A stretch of DNA of 64,000 bases. Source: a virus. Position 1 is the first letter of the stretch; each line of letters begins with the position of its first letter. Both the position numbers and the translations under genes were made by a program. The DNA is taken from IMG/VR virus record IMGVR_UViG_3300042569_003487, positions 62,001 through 126,000 of that record. One strand, given 5' to 3'. The notes under the pieces are model-generated. The model saw nothing but the letters and a program-made list of their open reading frames with translations, did not search any database and was not told the origin of the DNA. Shown one piece after another: positions 54,319 through 63,359 of the stretch.

Positions 54319-57300
54319 TTGTCAGAAATCGACAGTCTTATTGAACAAATTAAATGCGAGCTAAGAGAAAACCCCTTCTTTTCTGAAGGGGATCTTGCTG
54401 CTTTAGATGCATGTTTACCTAGCTCAGATGAATTAGAAAATGCTCAAATTGAAGCTATTGAAGAAATAGTTGCGGAAAATCCCTGTGCTAAAAAATCAAT
54501 TGATGCAATAAATTCAGAGCTAGAAAAAAACGATGCAAAATTAAAGGCTGCAGTCAAAGCAAAATACGTAATATCTAGATTACAAGAACTTAGAGACCTT
54601 CTTTACCCAGCTGAATATTTTTATAAAACCAGATCAGAATTTTTTAATAAGATTATCAAAGACCTAGATAATAGGTTTACTGTAGCTGGTGCAAACTACA
54701 ATACAGAATTTACTAATATTTTAAATAAGTATGAACTAAATTCATATAAATTTAATGCAGTTGCAACAACAACAACAATATCAGCAATTGATCAATTAAA
54801 CAAAGATATTAAGTCTCAAATTGAAGATTATTTTAGTAAAAGAACCTTTGCTGTTACTAATACTGATCCAATTAAATATTCATATAATTCAGATAATCCA
54901 ACATTTTCTATAAGTCTTCCTGGAAAGGATGGATTTTCTATTAAGTCTTCTGAAAATCAAAAAACAGGAAAGGTTGATTCTTTTGGTAATTCTGAAACCA
55001 AGCAAGTTGAAGTTAATGTTAAAATTTTACCAGAAGATTCAATTTATGAAACTAAAGATAAAGTTTTTCAAAAACGTACCCTTAATTTAGTTAACATCTC
55101 TTCACAAAGGTATACAGATAAATCTGCAACTGATTCACTATATCCATTTTCTGGACATCTTGCAAATTTCTATAAGAAAATTGAAGACCCTCTTACTCTT
55201 TTCACACTAGAAGAAAAAGGATTAACCACTGATTCTGTAAAAACTGATAAAAATCTTACCAAAGAAAAATTAGATGGAATTGTTAAAGAGCAAAGAGCAG
55301 ATGGAAGAGAAGAACAATTTTATATTGAAAATACAGAAACCTATCAAAAATTTTATGAAAATCTTGAACCTAAGATTGAGGAAAGAATTGAGGCTGAACG
55401 TACTAAATTTAGAAAAGGTCTAATTGAAACAGGTAAGCTAATAAAATTATCAAATCTTGCTAAAAAACAGGTATTTGATTTAGTTAACAATAGTCAGTTA
55501 ATATCTACTCCAACTGAAAAGCTTATCGTTAATGGTAAAGAGATTAAACCTAGCGAATACGGCCAACAGATTAGAGATAAAATTCAAAAGAGCGCCGACG
55601 AAATTTCTAAATTAGTTAAAGACATTGAAGCTCGTATTGCCGCTATTAAAAAAGCAAACACGCCAAATCCAGATGATTTAGCAAGCGCTCTTTCTGCAAC
55701 CGGATGTCTTCCCCCAACTGAACCTCCATGTAAATCTTTACCTAAAGCTGGATCTGACCCATTGGGTTATAAATCAATGACTATTCCAGCAACAATGGCT
55801 CAACCAGATTATACTTGTAATTGTTATTGGAAAGAAGTTACTAAACACCTAAATAAATTAAATCTACTTCCAATTCCAGATATAATGCGATTGCCGGCAC
55901 TTAGATATTGGCCAGTAGGAATCTTAATTCCTTTGCCTGTTCCAATTAGAATTCCGCTTCCTCAAATTTGGAAACATATTATAACATTAAATTTACCATT
56001 TGGTACACTTGTTGTTTGGTATATTCAATGCGGAATAGTACCATCTCCAATTGTTATGTACATCGGGCCAGATGGAAAAAAGATTATTCTATTAGGATTT
56101 AGAGCGCTTCAAGGTCAATTTGATCCAGTTGGCTATACAATTAACGAAAGCCCTAAACAACCAGCTCCGCTTGGAGTTACCCTTAGTGAAATTGGAAAAC
56201 CTACTGGAACTTCAATTAAAACTCTAACGTTTGGCACGATTTTACCAGATTCAGTCATGGAAAAAACTGCGAAAGTTATAGCTAAGGCTCAAGTAATTAC
56301 AGAACTTGTTACTGAAGGTAGACTAATGCCAAATGGCTTTAATATTCCATTTAAGCTTGGCGAAAAACCTAATTTTAATACCGGTGACGCTGACCTACTT
56401 AGTCAAGTTGCAGATGGAGTTGAGGATTTTCAGTTATTTGTTGAAAATCTTAGTCGACGTATTTGTAGGAAAATTGATGAAATTGGAGATATCGATTTAC
56501 CTAATTTTACTCTAGCTCTAGTTGATGCTGAACAAGCTGCTAAAGATAGAGCTCAAATATTAAGCGGCCTACCATATAATTTTGATTCAGCTTGGTTAAA
56601 TTGTGATCCAGCTAACCTATCAAATAATATACCAGCTGATGTTATTACAAGTGCAAATACTGATGCTGGCACGCAATGTAAAGAAGTTATTCTATCACTT
56701 TCATTAGATTTAGATAGTTTTTTAGATAAACTCAAACTAGGAACATATAAATTTCCAAAAAAGAAAGGAAAACAAATTAAACCACAAGCATTTTTAGATG
56801 AAATTGTTGATAATTTAATTGAATACTTATCTGATACAAACTTTGGAAAAAGCAGAAATATTAATTTAAATAAAAGATTTAGAAAAGCTATGCAAGATCT
56901 AGACTTGGATGCAGAAATTGATGCAATCCAAGCTAGCGTTGATCTTAGTAAAAATGAAGACTTAATTGCATTTAAGAAAACCCTAAAGAAATACGTAGAT
57001 GAAATTTGTGATGTAATGTCTGGTAAAAATATAAAGGTTGATAAAACTAAGCCAGCCTTTAAGCGAAGAGTCAATAATGAAAGAAAGCGCAGAATCCGAT
57101 TTAATTTAATAAATGGAATCAATATTAAAGATATGGTTGGGTCTACTCCAAATAAAGACGATAAAGATTTGTTAATAGACATGTTTAAACAACAAATTGC
57201 AAAATCGAACATTGATCCAACTGCTATTACTGACTCGGAATTATTTAATATTATAGAAACTTCTCCAAAGATTAATGATGATTATAAGAAAAGCCATGTT

Positions 57301-58560
57301 AAACAGGAGCAAATTACTAGAGACTACACGAAAAAAGCTCTAAAGCGAAAGGGCGGATCCTTTGATAAATTATCATTCGATAGCGAGGCAGATTACATGG
57401 ATAGTAAAATGACAATAAAGGAAAATAAAGTAAGTCAATTTATCTATGATGCGGAAGTGCGTAAACGTGAAAGAATTTCCGAGATATTAGGTCAAACTAT
57501 ATTGGGATTAACCAAAGATATTCAAAAAAATTTAGGACAAATTACCCAAATTGTTAAGCCTAAATGCTGCCCAGATCAATTAGAACTGCCTCAATTTATA
57601 GACCCATTAGTGTTAGCGTTAGTTATGTCATTTAAGCAACTTGCTCATACTGCAATTGATGCATTAACTACTGAAATATTAGGTCAAATTTTTGGTCAAG
57701 TTTTTCAATTAACAAAAGATACAGTTAAAGCAGTTGTTGATCTAGTAGCAAAAAACATTCCGGATATAGATCTACCACTAAATGGTGCAGCCTTTATTAA
57801 ATTAATCATAAACGCTCTTAAACCGTTTTTACCGTTACTTAGAATTCCATTAGGGCCTCTTCCTAGAACGCTTGGAGTTCCTCAGCTAACCCTTAACCTA
57901 GATTCGATTGTTAAACCTCTACTCAAAAGTGCAATCCAAATTTTATTAGACAAGCTACTAAGCTATTTTCCATTTAAGGTTTGTGATTTGCCGTTTACCA
58001 CAATTTCATCAAACATACTTAACGCAATTGTTAGAGGAATAAAGTCTGCCCTTAAACGAGCTATTATGGAATTAATTTCAGTAATATTAGATCCACTTCA
58101 ATCAATATTTAAACTTTTAAATTTAATAAAAAGTGTTAAAGGTGCATTTACTTCACTATTTGATATGACCAATCCATTTCTTAAAATTTATAAAATGATT
58201 AAAGAAATGTTAGAAAGAGAACTGCCAACCGCCGCGTTTATTAAATCAATAAACTCTCTATTACTATTAGCACAATTAGAAGCACTTAAAGTTTTAGATA
58301 AAGCTTCTAAAAATTTACCAGATATTGCTGTGTATCTTCCAATTGCAGCGGGGTCTTCATTGGGGCTTGGCCCAATCCTAAGGTCAGCAGTCCACCCCAT
58401 TCTAAATCAAGATGACCTTCCTACTTGGGATAGACTTAGTCTAAAGAATCCATTATACGTAATGTTTTTAGATGATTTAGCACATAAAGCAAAAGCCTCA
58501 ACTGGTTCAATTCTGGGACAAGATTTTCTTGGTACACCAGTCTATATTCCGACACCTTAA
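54319..58560 (+). CDS. Large protein of unknown function (1413 aa) with hydrophobic C-terminal half
   Basis: Not recognised. It uses a TTG start (SEIDSLIEQIKCELREN follows); no ATG precedes in frame after the groEL stop. Residues 1-140 are helical and acidic. Around 250-470 it is lysine/glutamate-rich and helical. At ~475-520 there is a cysteine cluster (TGCLPPTEPPC, YTCNCYWKEV). At ~535-600 come proline-spaced hydrophobic stretches (PVGILIPLPVPIRIPLPQIW, LPFGTLVVWYIQ). From ~1100 on there are long amphipathic/hydrophobic helices (LVLALVMSFKQLAHTAIDAL). It resembles a tape-measure or DNA-injection/virion protein in composition, but tape-measure proteins are usually all-helical and this one has the Cys and Pro blocks. 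Unusual enough to flag. Confidence 0.6.
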   Translation: MSEIDSLIEQIKCELRENPFFSEGDLAALDACLPSSDELENAQIEAIEEIVAENPCAKKSIDAINSELEKNDAKLKAAVKAKYVISRLQELRDLLYPAEYFYKTRSEFFNKIIKDLDNRFTVAGANYNTEFTNILNKYELNSYKFNAVATTTTISAIDQLNKDIKSQIEDYFSKRTFAVTNTDPIKYSYNSDNPTFSISLPGKDGFSIKSSENQKTGKVDSFGNSETKQVEVNVKILPEDSIYETKDKVFQKRTLNLVNISSQRYTDKSATDSLYPFSGHLANFYKKIEDPLTLFTLEEKGLTTDSVKTDKNLTKEKLDGIVKEQRADGREEQFYIENTETYQKFYENLEPKIEERIEAERTKFRKGLIETGKLIKLSNLAKKQVFDLVNNSQLISTPTEKLIVNGKEIKPSEYGQQIRDKIQKSADEISKLVKDIEARIAAIKKANTPNPDDLASALSATGCLPPTEPPCKSLPKAGSDPLGYKSMTIPATMAQPDYTCNCYWKEVTKHLNKLNLLPIPDIMRLPALRYWPVGILIPLPVPIRIPLPQIWKHIITLNLPFGTLVVWYIQCGIVPSPIVMYIGPDGKKIILLGFRALQGQFDPVGYTINESPKQPAPLGVTLSEIGKPTGTSIKTLTFGTILPDSVMEKTAKVIAKAQVITELVTEGRLMPNGFNIPFKLGEKPNFNTGDADLLSQVADGVEDFQLFVENLSRRICRKIDEIGDIDLPNFTLALVDAEQAAKDRAQILSGLPYNFDSAWLNCDPANLSNNIPADVITSANTDAGTQCKEVILSLSLDLDSFLDKLKLGTYKFPKKKGKQIKPQAFLDEIVDNLIEYLSDTNFGKSRNINLNKRFRKAMQDLDLDAEIDAIQASVDLSKNEDLIAFKKTLKKYVDEICDVMSGKNIKVDKTKPAFKRRVNNERKRRIRFNLINGINIKDMVGSTPNKDDKDLLIDMFKQQIAKSNIDPTAITDSELFNIIETSPKINDDYKKSHVKQEQITRDYTKKALKRKGGSFDKLSFDSEADYMDSKMTIKENKVSQFIYDAEVRKRERISEILGQTILGLTKDIQKNLGQITQIVKPKCCPDQLELPQFIDPLVLALVMSFKQLAHTAIDALTTEILGQIFGQVFQLTKDTVKAVVDLVAKNIPDIDLPLNGAAFIKLIINALKPFLPLLRIPLGPLPRTLGVPQLTLNLDSIVKPLLKSAIQILLDKLLSYFPFKVCDLPFTTISSNILNAIVRGIKSALKRAIMELISVILDPLQSIFKLLNLIKSVKGAFTSLFDMTNPFLKIYKMIKEMLERELPTAAFIKSINSLLLLAQLEALKVLDKASKNLPDIAVYLPIAAGSSLGLGPILRSAVHPILNQDDLPTWDRLSLKNPLYVMFLDDLAHKAKASTGSILGQDFLGTPVYIPTP

Positions 58561-58616
58561 TTAAAACTACTAGTACTTTATCGGTATAATATTTTAGATT
58601 ATTCAAATTTAAAAAT

Positions 58617-59795
58617 ATGACTTATACCAACGAAGAACTTGAATTTATTTTTGCACAAGGAAACGCGAAAGTAAACAAAGCTGTTAAATTGACTGCTGCT
58701 GATAAAAAAGCCGGTGTTAAAATTTTCTGTAAAGAACCGTACGCTCAAGAGATGTACGATCGTTATTTTAGCTCTGAAGCAGGCCATCCAATGCCAGCTG
58801 GAAATAAAGATATTCCAGTAGGAGAAATTAGAACTGTTAGCATTAAGAAAATTGACTTTGCAATGTCAATGGTAGAAATGGAAGATGCGTCGACTATGAC
58901 TAGTATCTTTGTTCCATTTAGAGAATTTTCACAAGAACCTTCTTTAAGTCTTTTAAATGAAGATAAAGATCGTAAATACAAAGTTATGATCTATAAATCA
59001 AATATGAGCGAGATTCTAGGTTCAGAAAAACGTTGTGCTGCTCTTACTCTTAGAGAAGACGTTGAATACTTTGCTAAAAATAATAAGTGGTTCTACGTTA
59101 AAGTGGTTGAACTTATTAAAGGCGGTTACCTTGCAATCTATAAAAACCAAATCAAATGTTTCCTTCCAGGATCTCATGCTGCAGCAAACGTAATTAGAGA
59201 CTTCTCTGAATACTTGCACAAAGAAATTCCAGTTATGGTTGAAAACTTTGATTCAGTTAATAACTTATTCATTGTTTCATACAAGAAATACATTAAGGAA
59301 ACTCTTCCTCAAAAAGTATCTGATCTTTCATTTGGTCAGAAATATACAGGGACTCTTACCAATAATCCATACGATTTTGGAGTCTTTGTTGAATTCCAAA
59401 ACTACTATACAGGACTTATACACAAGTCAGATTTTGAAAATGACGCTGCCTTTAGAGAATTTAGTAAAGGCTTACGTTCAGGCGATCAAATTGACTTCTG
59501 GGTTAAAGACGTTGTACAGAAGAAAGGAGATTATCGAATTATACTTACAGTAAATCCGGAATCAATCGATCCAGTTAAGAAAAGCTGGCAAAGCCTTAAA
59601 GATGGCATCGAGGGTCAAACATTAGATTACTCTTATGAAAAGGGTTCTATGAAAATGACTCTACCAGATGAACAAACCATCTCTGTTTCAGTTTCATCTC
59701 AAGTAATGCAAGGTCGTTCAGCAGAAGGCCAGGTATTAATTCAAAAAGTTGATGTTTTGAAGCAAAATTTAGGGTTCGAGATACTAGGTAATTAA
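58617..59795 (+). CDS. Ribosomal protein S1-like RNA-binding protein
   Basis: A 392-residue protein containing at least one clear S1 (OB-fold) repeat. GQKYTGTLTNNPYDFGVFVE followed by YTGLIHKSDF (~240-272) is the classic S1 beginning, ending in QIDFWVKDVV. Two more S1-like units precede it: ~68-130 (VGEIRTVSIKKIDFAMSMVE) and ~157-225 (KWFYVKVVELIKGGYLAIYK, with IKCFLPGSHA). S1 domains bind single-stranded RNA; ribosomal S1 helps start translation of mRNAs lacking Shine-Dalgarno sites. This gene has an A/T-rich leader and no Shine-Dalgarno. A role in favouring phage mRNAs is inference. The gap before it holds no other gene. Confidence 0.82.
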   Translation: MTYTNEELEFIFAQGNAKVNKAVKLTAADKKAGVKIFCKEPYAQEMYDRYFSSEAGHPMPAGNKDIPVGEIRTVSIKKIDFAMSMVEMEDASTMTSIFVPFREFSQEPSLSLLNEDKDRKYKVMIYKSNMSEILGSEKRCAALTLREDVEYFAKNNKWFYVKVVELIKGGYLAIYKNQIKCFLPGSHAAANVIRDFSEYLHKEIPVMVENFDSVNNLFIVSYKKYIKETLPQKVSDLSFGQKYTGTLTNNPYDFGVFVEFQNYYTGLIHKSDFENDAAFREFSKGLRSGDQIDFWVKDVVQKKGDYRIILTVNPESIDPVKKSWQSLKDGIEGQTLDYSYEKGSMKMTLPDEQTISVSVSSQVMQGRSAEGQVLIQKVDVLKQNLGFEILGN

Positions 59796-59966: not shown

Positions 59967-60929
59967 ATGGAACCGATTCTAACTGAGAATCCGAACAGGT
60001 TTGTCATCTTCCCTATCCAGCACCATGACCTTTGGGACTTCTACAAAAAGTCTGAAGCGTCTTTCTGGACAGCAGAGGAAATTGACTTAGCCGCGGATCT
60101 AACTGACTGGAGAACTAAACTTAACGACGAAGAGCGTTATTTTATTAAAAATGTTTTAGCTTTCTTTGCCGCATCTGACGGTATTGTAAATGAGAACCTA
60201 GCTGAGAATTTTGTGAGAGAGGTACAATACCCTGAAGCTAAATTTTTCTATGGCTTTCAAATTATGATGGAGAATATCCATTCTGAAACATATTCTCTTC
60301 TTATTGATACTTATATTAATGACGAAGAAGAAAAAGCAAAATTATTTAACGCAATTGATACAATCGATGCCGTTAAGAAAAAAGCGCAATGGGCGCTAAA
60401 ATGGATTAAGAGCGATTCTTTTGCAGAGCGCCTAATTGCATTTGCCGCAGTTGAAGGTATTTTCTTTTCTGGTTCTTTTTGTTCAATCTTTTGGTTAAAG
60501 AAACGTGGTCTTATGCCAGGTCTAAGCTTCTCAAACGAGCTTATTTCAAGAGACGAAGGTATGCATACAGACTTTGCCGTACACTTACATAATAATCATA
60601 TTGTAAATAAAGTTTCTGAAGCAAAAATTAAAGAAATTATTCTTTCTGCTTTGGAAATCGAAAAAGAATTCATTACTGAGTCTCTTCCAGTTAGACTCAT
60701 CGGTATGAATGCTGATCTAATGAAGCAGTATCTAGAATTTGTTACTGATAGATTGCTTCTTGACTTAGGTTGCAGTAAAGAGTTTAATGTTCAAAATCCA
60801 TTTGACTTTATGACTAACATTGCACTTAAAGGAAAAACTAACTTCTTTGAAAAAAGAGTTGGTGAATACCAAAAGGCCGGCGTAAAATCTGCGATTGTGC
60901 AAGATTTTTCTACCGATGAAGATTTTTAA
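59967..60929 (+). CDS. nrdB: Class Ia ribonucleotide reductase small subunit
   Basis: A 320-residue R2 protein that makes the tyrosyl radical needed to reduce ribonucleotides. Di-iron ligands are Asp71 ([10 protein letters not shown]), Glu102 and His105 ([10 protein letters not shown]), Glu163 ([10 protein letters not shown]), and Glu197 and His200 (ISRDEGMH). The radical tyrosine is Tyr109. The C-terminus (STDEDF) matches the R1-binding tail. The wording of these blocks ([45 protein letters not shown]) is very close to eukaryotic R2, the eukaryote-like clade, rather than to E. coli NrdB. It is followed 21 bases later by nrdA. Confidence 0.96.
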
Positions 60930-60950: not shown

Positions 60951-63359
60951 ATGAAGGTTACAAAAAGAGATGGCTCATTAGAGACACTAAAACTAGATAA
61001 GATCACCAACCGTATTAAAAAACAAACATACGGTTTAAATTTAGATTTCGTAGATGCCCTAGAAGTTGCAACTAAAGTTGTAGCAGGTATCTATGATGGA
61101 ATTACTACAGTTGAACTGGATAATTTAGCAGCTGAAACATCAGCTTCTTTAAATCACGTACATCCAGATTATTCATATCTTGCAGCTAGAGTTGCAATTA
61201 CCAGATTGCACAAAACAGTTAGCAAGAAATTTTCAGAAGTAATTGAGGCTTTATATTCATATACTGATCCAAAAACTGGTCTTCCAGCTGGATTAATTAA
61301 TGATGATGTAATTAAAGCAGTTCGCAAACACGCCGATATTTTAAATGAATCTATCTTACATGATAGAGATTTTAATTTTGATTACTTTGGATTTAAGACT
61401 CTAGAAAAGAGTTACCTACTTAAGATCAATGGTCAGACAGCTGAAGCTCCTCAACATATGTACATGAGAGTTGCAGTTGGTATTTGGGGAGATGATATTC
61501 AAAATGTTCTAAAGACATACGAACTATTATCTACTCATAAAATGACCCATGCTACGCCTACTCTATTTAATGCTGGAACAAAAAGACCTCAATTATCTTC
61601 TTGTTTCTTATTAACTATGCAGGAAGATTCTATTCAAGGAATTTACAAAACCCTATCTGACGTTGCTGCAATTTCACAAAATGCAGGCGGTATTGGATTA
61701 GCTATTCATAATGTTAGAGCAACCGGTTCTTATATTAAAGGAACCAATGGTACTTCTAATGGAATTGTTCCAATGCTTAAAGTATTTAACGAAACTGCTA
61801 GATACGTTGATCAAGGCGGTGGAAAACGCAAAGGTTCATTTGCAATTTATCTTGAACCTTGGCACGCTGACGTTGAAGATTGGTTAGACCTTCGTAAAAA
61901 CCATGGTAAAGAAGAGCGCAGAGCTAGAGATCTTTTCTTAGCTCTATGGACTCCAGATTTATTTATGGAAAGAGTTGAAGCCGATGCAGATTGGACTCTA
62001 TTTTGTCCGGCCGAAATTGGTGTTGAACTTTGGGAAATGCATGGTCAAGAATTTAGAGATAATTACGAAAGACTTGAACGTGAAGGTAAAGGTCGCCGTA
62101 CAATAAAAGCAAGAGCTCTTTGGCAAAAAGTATTAGAATCTCAAATTGAAACCGGAACACCTTATATTCTTTATAAAGATGCGGCCAATGAGAAATCTAA
62201 CCAAAAAAATCTAGGTACAATTAAGTCTTCTAACTTATGTACTGAGATTATGGAATACACAAGCAAAGACGAACAGGCTGTTTGTAACTTAGCTTCAATT
62301 GCAGTTAATCAATTTATTAAGTTTCCAGAAAAGAGATCTTTAAAACAGCGTAGAGCCCATGCAGAATATGATCACCAAGCCCTATACGATGTTACATATC
62401 AAACTACCTTAAATCTTAATAAAGTAATTGATATTAATTTCTATCCAACTCCAGAGACTAAAGCTTCTAATATGAAGCATCGTCCAATTGGAATCGGTAT
62501 TCAGGGAATGGCAGATACTTTTGCAATTTTAGGTTTACCTTTTACATCAGATGAAGCTAAGAAATTAAATGAAGATATTTTTGAAACAATTTATTTTGCT
62601 TCAATGAAAGCTTCAGCTGATCTTTCTAAAAAACTTGGAGCGTACGAATCATTTGAAGGAAGCCCATTAAGTGAAGGTAAATTCCAATTTAATCTTTGGG
62701 GTTTCGAAGATTCTCAACTTTCAGGCAGATGGGATTGGTCAGCCCTTAGAAAACAAGTTATGAAAACTGGTGCTCGTAATTCTTTATTGTTAGCTCCAAT
62801 GCCGACTGCATCAACCGCTCAAATCATGGGTAATAATGAAGCGTTTGAAGCATTTACCTCAAACTTGTATACTAGAAGAACACTTTCTGGAGAATTTGTT
62901 ATTGTTAACAAACATCTAGTAAGAGACCTAGTTGAATTAGATTTATGGTCAGATAATTTAAAAAATAAAATTATTACTGAAAAGGGGTCAATTCAAAATA
63001 TTGCAGAAATCCCAGTTGAAATTAGAGAAATCTATAAAACTGTATGGGAATTAAAGCAAAGAGAAGTAATTGATATGTCAGCAGATCGTGGTAAATTTAT
63101 TTGTCAATCACAATCGCTTAACCTTTTTATTAAGGACGCAAATGCTGCAAAATTAACTTCTGCTCATTTCCATTCTTGGAGAAAGGGCCTTAAAACTGGA
63201 ATGTATTATTTAAGAACAGAATCTGCAGTTGATGCTATTGCTGGTCTTGGAGTAGACTCTGCTGCACTAAAGCAGTCAACTCTATCTGCTGAACAAATCC
63301 AAAGCGATCTAGTTTGTTCGCTTGATAATCCAGACGATTGTATTGCCTGTTCTTCTTAA
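60951..63359 (+). CDS. nrdA: Class Ia ribonucleotide reductase large subunit
   Basis: An 802-residue R1. Residues 1-90 form an ATP-cone (TKRDGSLETLKLDKITNRI) for allosteric control by ATP/dATP. Catalytic set: Cys218 in QLSSCFLLT, Asn428/Cys430/Glu432 in SSNLCTEIM, and Cys445 in AVCNLASIAV. The tyrosine pair for radical transfer is in GLKTGMYYLRT. The C-terminal redox pair is the CIAC just before the end. The numbering is one off from human R1, again pointing to the eukaryote-like clade. It would supply dNTPs for phage replication together with NrdB. No frameshift or missing catalytic residue is visible. Confidence 0.97.
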   Translation: MKVTKRDGSLETLKLDKITNRIKKQTYGLNLDFVDALEVATKVVAGIYDGITTVELDNLAAETSASLNHVHPDYSYLAARVAITRLHKTVSKKFSEVIEALYSYTDPKTGLPAGLINDDVIKAVRKHADILNESILHDRDFNFDYFGFKTLEKSYLLKINGQTAEAPQHMYMRVAVGIWGDDIQNVLKTYELLSTHKMTHATPTLFNAGTKRPQLSSCFLLTMQEDSIQGIYKTLSDVAAISQNAGGIGLAIHNVRATGSYIKGTNGTSNGIVPMLKVFNETARYVDQGGGKRKGSFAIYLEPWHADVEDWLDLRKNHGKEERRARDLFLALWTPDLFMERVEADADWTLFCPAEIGVELWEMHGQEFRDNYERLEREGKGRRTIKARALWQKVLESQIETGTPYILYKDAANEKSNQKNLGTIKSSNLCTEIMEYTSKDEQAVCNLASIAVNQFIKFPEKRSLKQRRAHAEYDHQALYDVTYQTTLNLNKVIDINFYPTPETKASNMKHRPIGIGIQGMADTFAILGLPFTSDEAKKLNEDIFETIYFASMKASADLSKKLGAYESFEGSPLSEGKFQFNLWGFEDSQLSGRWDWSALRKQVMKTGARNSLLLAPMPTASTAQIMGNNEAFEAFTSNLYTRRTLSGEFVIVNKHLVRDLVELDLWSDNLKNKIITEKGSIQNIAEIPVEIREIYKTVWELKQREVIDMSADRGKFICQSQSLNLFIKDANAAKLTSAHFHSWRKGLKTGMYYLRTESAVDAIAGLGVDSAALKQSTLSAEQIQSDLVCSLDNPDDCIACSS

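Follow-up and report, generated by a model that had tools for sequence, protein, structure and literature searches.

Bacteroidota start translation without Shine-Dalgarno (SD) pairing, and bS1 is the suspected, as yet unproven, reader of their A-rich leaders; in F. johnsoniae, positions -14 to -11 of the leader come close to S1 on the ribosome, and As at these positions favour translation (PMC6847099). The F. johnsoniae bS1 doubles initiation in vitro on one SD-less mRNA (PMC9976891). The S1 of E. coli needs only its domains D1-D3 as the minimal part for 30S binding and most of the initiation work, tolerates deletion of D5-D6 (PMC3858243, Duval 2013), and stacks an N-terminal aromatic helix (Phe5, Phe9) on uS2 (PMC4288201). 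Phages, too, have been found to carry ribosomal proteins. Both S1 and S21 were described in huge phages, among which the carriers of a possible rpS1 rarely have SD sites, and a role in initiation was proposed; the authors add the reservation that such proteins are difficult to establish as genuine rpS1, and note as many as six S1 domains (Al-Shayeb 2020, PMC7162821); the idea connecting a phage S1, missing SD sites and the hijacking of translation has been in print since that report of 2020 (PMC7162821). Late substitution of the ribosome by phage bS21 was likewise proposed (Chen 2022, PMC9723584), a bS21 and a bL12 of viral origin were shown to be incorporated into the ribosomes of E. coli (Mizuno 2019, PMC6375957), and the Microcystis phage PhiMa05, a cyanophage, encodes bS1 (PMC13157829). 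The literature searches turned up no phage S1 protein that had been tested by experiment.

Here we describe an S1-like gene in a 64-kb window (the whole stretch of DNA that was analysed, bases 62001-126000 of an IMG/VR virus record of 141,925 bases). The open reading frame at 58617-59795 (Table 1) is a real gene, because its start and frame recur in IMG/VR relatives (87-100% identity) and its dN/dS of 0.04-0.13 in the pairs computed implies strong purifying selection. As judged from the sequence, S1 homology of the 392-aa product is far above chance: the Pfam S1 model matches with 2.6e-7, best over residues 253-304, and a single-sequence search of the PDB returns E. coli bS1 at 3.6e-14. A profile built from 42 family sequences puts bS1 first, its positions 60-300 running along residues 17-260 of the E. 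coli protein (E 1.1e-39), so that the S1-type assignment made by an earlier, sequence-only reading of this DNA is borne out and extends to co-linearity with bS1 D1-D3. When aligned by hhalign with Bacteroidota bS1 (26 rpsA sequences out of 61 genomes searched), the family profile reaches a probability of 99.6% (E 2e-24, columns 53-399 against 58-405), and the alignment spans the N-terminal helix to D4. A search of PHROGs returned no family for the protein, and its scores lie far below the curated rpsA/S1 cut-offs (54 against 577 bits for TIGR00717, 71.7 against 368 for NF005208 and 74.3 against 624 for NF000907), for which reason we class it as a member of a bS1-like phage family and not as bS1 itself.

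Table 1. Features of the S1-like locus and of the other translation genes of the record (window coordinates unless marked otherwise)
Feature	Position	Strand	Basis or remark
S1-like gene	58617..59795	+	392 aa, ATG start
N-terminal extension, residues 1-66	58617..58814	+	conserved motif E-P-Y-A-Q-E-(L/M)-Y-x-x-Y
Predicted helix, residues 43-52, candidate ribosome anchor	58743-58772	+	AlphaFold model
OB domain 1, residues 67-150, bS1 D1-like	58815..59066	+	profile, structure alignment, hhalign
OB domain 2, residues 155-231, bS1 D2-like, F-L-P-G-S motif	59079..59309	+	profile, structure alignment, hhalign
OB domain 3, residues 236-315, bS1 D3-like, RNA-binding aromatic/His residues kept	59322..59561	+	Pfam S1, conservation
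Degenerate OB domain 4, residues 330-392	59604..59792	+	AlphaFold model, hhalign
GTATAAT element, promoter-like	58584..58590	+	33 bases upstream of the S1 start codon
GroEL, complete, 530 aa	52679..54271	+	NCBIfam GroEL 645 bits, above curated cut-off
1413-aa protein	54319..58560	+	upstream neighbour, conserved there in the window-type arrangement
NrdB	59967..60929	+	downstream neighbour
NrdA	60951..63359	+	downstream neighbour
bS21 (L147:1468-1662)	about G000:C1:32788-32982	-	outside the window; PF01165 45.5 bits, above cut-off
tmRNA (L013:14455-14924)	G000:C1:56455-56924	+	outside the window; 97.4 bits, full model

The AlphaFold model of the protein (pLDDT 83.7, pTM 0.56) contains four OB folds, which span roughly residues 71-136, 158-221, 242-311 and 335-390. 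Three S1-like repeats, one of them unmistakable, had been counted from the sequence; the repeats stand, and the unmistakable one is the third, but the count was slightly low. The model aligns with ribosome-bound bS1 in 9gut_B (Z 13.4, rmsd 7.3, 168 aligned), 8peg_Z (Z 13.0, rmsd 3.9, 158 aligned) and 9gux_B (Z 11.6, rmsd 6.2, 246 aligned), in the last case with model residues 47-314 against bS1 2-261. The full six-domain set of Bacteroidota and E. coli bS1 is absent from the 392-aa protein with its four OB folds; a shorter form of S1 exists in Bacillota (the NF005208 model has 391 positions). Taken together, sequence and model indicate that the gene product is a minimal phage version of a bS1-type protein, with the first four OB folds in order and without D5-D6. 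Conservation is concentrated at telling positions: F182, P184 and G185 of the D2 signature core are identical in 42/42 sequences, F257 and H269 of D3 likewise, and F/Y254 is kept in 41 of the 42, the three D3 residues occupying what we take to be the canonical RNA-contacting positions of S1. In the N-terminal motif, Y42 and A43 occur in all 42 sequences, E40 in 39 and Y50 in 35, and a conserved helix with Y42, M46 and Y50 precedes D1. When the N-terminus alone was compared with the host anchor helix, 16 of 100 column shuffles scored as high, i.e. the similarity is not significant, and the helix is a candidate ribosome anchor whose role would be plausible by position only.

The gene was sought in other phages, as the sequence-only reading had suggested, and relatives turned up in at least 575 IMG/VR stretches (among at least 598 pattern matches, the query being aligned beforehand with homologues from Lak and further huge phages), from which search 79 loci were retained; complete family members are nearly all 365-403 aa long. 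Lak phages carry homologues, and so do LR756500-LR756502, records of 462-735 kb that, by their size, are presumably those of Al-Shayeb 2020. In a tree of 57 rows (25 phage, 1 Acinetobacter, 15 from a Bacillota set and 16 from a Bacteroidota set), all 25 phage proteins, comprising the window type, a second type, Lak and LR756500-LR756502, form one group with support 100/100, apart from cellular S1. A Bacteroidota origin of the phage gene was considered and set aside, as the tree places all phage S1 outside every sampled cellular S1; because the stems are long, the origin is unreadable from it. An independent test anchored on NrdA took 21 of 80 loci, once many short contigs and the records already met in searching for S1 had been set aside, and found S1 in 9 of the 21 (the misses may be fragments), including 6/6 of those of at least 180 kb. 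The S1-like gene is a core gene of this large-phage lineage. A scan of genome contigs returned two relatives only, one of them on a contig of 254 kb assigned to a Bacteroidetes MAG, which has an rpsA of its own. The other (L108:1256-2176), 27% identical, sits on a contig of 3.4 kb that belongs to a Clostridium MAG and may be a phage fragment. The host is likely a member of the Bacteroidota, in view of the Lak records that name Prevotella as host, the contig binned in the Bacteroidetes MAG, and leaders that are SD-less and A-rich; Bacteroidetes hosts were also predicted for the largest phages of Al-Shayeb 2020 (PMC7162821).

What would such a protein do in the infected cell? We give a probability of about one in two to the reading that the minimal S1 core docks on the host 30S subunit and favours phage mRNA. 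D1-D2, aided by the N-terminal helix, would seat the phage S1 on the Bacteroidota 30S at the exchangeable bS1 position, D3 would hold the A-rich, unstructured phage leaders, phage mRNAs would load without SD pairing and fare better in competition with host mRNAs, and the phage bS21 from the same record may act at the neighbouring platform site; the docking, the mRNA preference and the timing of its action are what we infer. The same retention of the docking domains, with D5-D6 missing, would also suit a competitor, that is, a truncated S1 that displaces full-length bS1 and shuts host translation down while promoting nothing of the phage's own. This is quite improbable, given that D1-D3 of the E. 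coli protein retain function and do not inhibit, and that loss of D5-D6 is viable (PMC3858243); an inhibitor, moreover, would have no need of the RNA-contacting residues kept in D3. Could the protein then work away from the ribosome altogether? S1 domains are generic RNA binders, and this speaks for an RNA chaperone or RNA-decay cofactor that would bind phage or host mRNA and partner a nuclease or a replication or recombination enzyme. Host S1 furnishes precedents with T4 RegB, Q-beta replicase and lambda beta (PMC13157829). Nevertheless, we consider such a role unlikely: every one of the top matches is a bS1, aligned in order over D1-D3, whereas PNPase, RNase R, Tex and GSP13 match the D3 stretch only, the remainder of the phage protein matching bS1; no catalytic or partner domains of the kind that accompany a single S1 domain in proteins of these types were seen; and the docking pair D1-D2, which simple RNA binding does not need, is kept.

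Docking on the 30S has also to be weighed against the company that the gene keeps. Its placement beside nucleotide-metabolism genes, already claimed from the sequence, holds for the window, where NrdB and NrdA lie downstream and an exonuclease gene is also found upstream; no tRNA was found within the 64 kb. Across 63 loci (the window, L107 and 61 of the 79, near-duplicates having been discarded on visual inspection) there are two gene orders. The window type reads GroEL - 1413-aa protein - S1 - NrdB - NrdA, its 1413-aa member matching nothing in PHROGs or Pfam; the second reads hub/lysozyme-like - large protein - S1 - 468-aa protein - head-tail adaptor - gp25-like - gp6-like. S1 stands among baseplate genes in most relatives, and a packaged or structural, baseplate-associated virion protein fits this arrangement too; the window-type neighbours GroEL and ribonucleotide reductase, the conserved RNA-binding residues and the promoter-like element that S1 has to itself all argue against a virion role, which we hold to be very improbable. 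The 468-aa protein (L067:6076-7479 (+) and equivalents) lies directly 3' of S1 in 41 of the 63 loci and has a weak Amidoligase_2 match (6e-4, under Pfam's cut-off), and peptide-ligase modification of S1 or of another protein by it could be imagined. The promoter-like element itself, GTATAAT, precedes the start by 14-50 bases in 7 of the record's 132 leaders, first in rank among 140 permutations, and TATAAT or TATATA occurs within 80 bases upstream of S1 in 54 of 57 relatives. The shorter TATAAT shows no excess upstream of the record's genes (10 against 11.6 in shuffles), so that only the longer GTATAAT stands out, possibly as a phage promoter class. That it also precedes a DNA-polymerase-exonuclease-like gene and a methyltransferase-like gene is a point in favour of the off-ribosome chaperone.

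The lack of SD sites at the starts inspected had been offered as a sign of what the protein does. The lack itself persists across the whole record: with a 4-base core, mononucleotide shuffles and the 5'-most ATG taken as start, GGAG, GAGG or AGGA occurs in 8.4% of 107 ATG leaders against 4.9+-2.0% in shuffles (8.3% against 5.1% in a 108-gene set), as compared with 47% against 19% in the T4 control. Window-type relatives (4.3% against 3.0%) and second-type relatives (2.5% against 2.9%) are equally poor; 18 host stretches of the Bacteroidota phylum have the core in 20% of leaders against 10%, and crAss001 in 26% against 11.5%. However, Cellulophaga phage phi14:2 lacks SD just as much (4.4% against 5.2%), and no S1 relative was found in it, in crAss001 or in T4, none of which is among the 38 phage-collection records with a match. 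Therefore, the lack of SD looks like a trait of the host group and does not serve as evidence on S1, the more so as Bacteroidia ribosomes ignore SD sites (PMC9976891). By the same token, caution is due with the published correlation between S1 and missing SD: in the host group, at least one phage without detected S1 is equally SD-poor. Leader composition tells much the same story: A makes up 0.53-0.56 of positions -14 to -11 in the record and its relatives, and the range is no wider than 0.53-0.57 when crAss001 and phi14:2 are included, so the leader pattern of S1-bearing relatives is that of phages without detected S1, with no phage-specific mRNA signal seen. The record's own A-tract lies further upstream (0.55 A at -20 to -15 against 0.43-0.45 in relatives, crAss001 and phi14:2). 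A special register tied to S1 was rejected, other S1 carriers not sharing this enrichment. The viral-S1 interpretation as a whole thus keeps the S1-type protein, its retained bS1 D1-D3 and the bS21 of the same record, and loses the SD argument.

That bS21 gene, adjoined by a Nudix hydrolase gene, encodes Tyr at position 54 (our own count along the sequence), a residue described as an anti-SD lock (PMC9723584). It is shared by few: bS21 was found in 4 of the 28 S1-bearing records searched (this one and three relatives) and not seen in the other 24. None of the four phage bS21 leaders pairs well with the anti-SD tail (-0.6 to -4.3 kcal/mol), whereas good pairing (-12.7 to -19.6 kcal/mol) is seen for 8 of the 14 host rpsU leaders that could be used, two of the eight being identical (16 of 30 loci were parsed, and L289 and L309 among them are evident miscalls). 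The record's tmRNA has a likely tag frame ending ...GADLAVAA (the ARAGORN tag differs and looks wrong), and of the 8 tmRNA loci looked at, 7 have a reading frame with LAVAA or LLAA at its end. Of the 28 S1-bearing IMG/VR records, 16 have a full-length tmRNA that clears the gathering score, among them 12 of the 14 of at least 200 kb (the other two have full-span matches of 41.4 and 38 bits), and so do 3 of 5 S1-bearing huge phages of GenBank. Such co-occurrence, together with the tag frames and with the influence of cellular S1 on trans-translation (a title cited within PMC13157829), would fit an S1 that partners the phage's own tmRNA and helps to load or protect it in ribosome rescue, but the co-occurrence is suggestive only, because the records are related and not independent. 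Also, tmRNA is present in huge phages generally (Al-Shayeb 2020, PMC7162821), and among phages without detected S1 it scores above the cut-off in phage G, 1 of 9 controls (2 if phi14:2 is counted), which leaves a tmRNA partner hardly probable. The match in phi14:2 (KC821624 4031-4502 (+)) is full-span at 46.0 bits, just below the gathering score of 47.

For docking on the 30S, then, count the co-linear D1-D3 match, the match to Bacteroidota bS1 as far as D4, the alignments of the model to ribosome-bound bS1, the D3 residues, the sufficiency of D1-D3 in E. coli, the effect of F. johnsoniae bS1 in vitro, the A-rich leaders, the bS21 of this record and three relatives, the low dN/dS and the six out of six NrdA-anchored records of at least 180 kb; against it count the rpsA score of 54 against 577 bits, the shuffle test of the helix, the leader pattern common to phages with and without a detected S1, the baseplate neighbours and the 24 records in which bS21 was not seen. 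The degenerate D4 counts against it as well, because D4 of E. coli S1 is placed near mRNA positions -12 to -15 (PMC6847099). A broader version, which we regard as rather doubtful, is that the phages carry a kit for respecifying ribosomes, in which the minimal bS1 would replace the host's mRNA-capture arm, bS21 (in some) and tmRNA would join it, and Bacteroidota 30S subunits would become phage-preferring. Phage bS21, lacking the autoregulatory SD leader of many host rpsU genes and keeping Tyr54, could be made on ordinary ribosomes, and phage tmRNA would recycle stalled ones.

How, finally, does this family relate to what has been described? With Bacteroidota bS1 (rpsA) it shares the order and fold of D1-D4, the F-L-P-G-S motif, the RNA residues of D3 and an N-terminal extension before D1; unlike it, the phage protein has no D5-D6 and a degenerate D4, scores below the rpsA cut-offs and forms a separate, long-stemmed clade. 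Phage bS21 (Chen 2022, PMC9723584) is similarly a phage-borne, exchangeable 30S protein of Bacteroidota phages, its Tyr54 being kept in the record's bS21, but it is a different protein, and 'bS1', 'ribosomal protein S1' and 'tmRNA' are absent from the main text of that paper. The bS1 of PhiMa05, also phage-encoded, comes with five other ribosomal proteins and groups with Vampirovibrio in the trees of its own paper (PMC13157829), beside which the present family is set by description only. The huge-phage proteins called 'possible rpS1' (Al-Shayeb 2020) equally consist of tandem S1 domains encoded in SD-poor phage genomes; with Lak and LR756500-LR756502 in the same 100/100 clade, these and the present proteins probably represent one family, which the present analysis delimits specifically by its four OB folds and its likeness to bS1 D1-D4. 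What is added is the definition of that clade, its standing as a core gene of the lineage and an SD argument weakened by phi14:2, which looks S1-less. A natural, stripped-down S1 under strong selection is, moreover, a ready tool for testing which part of S1 reads A-rich leaders.
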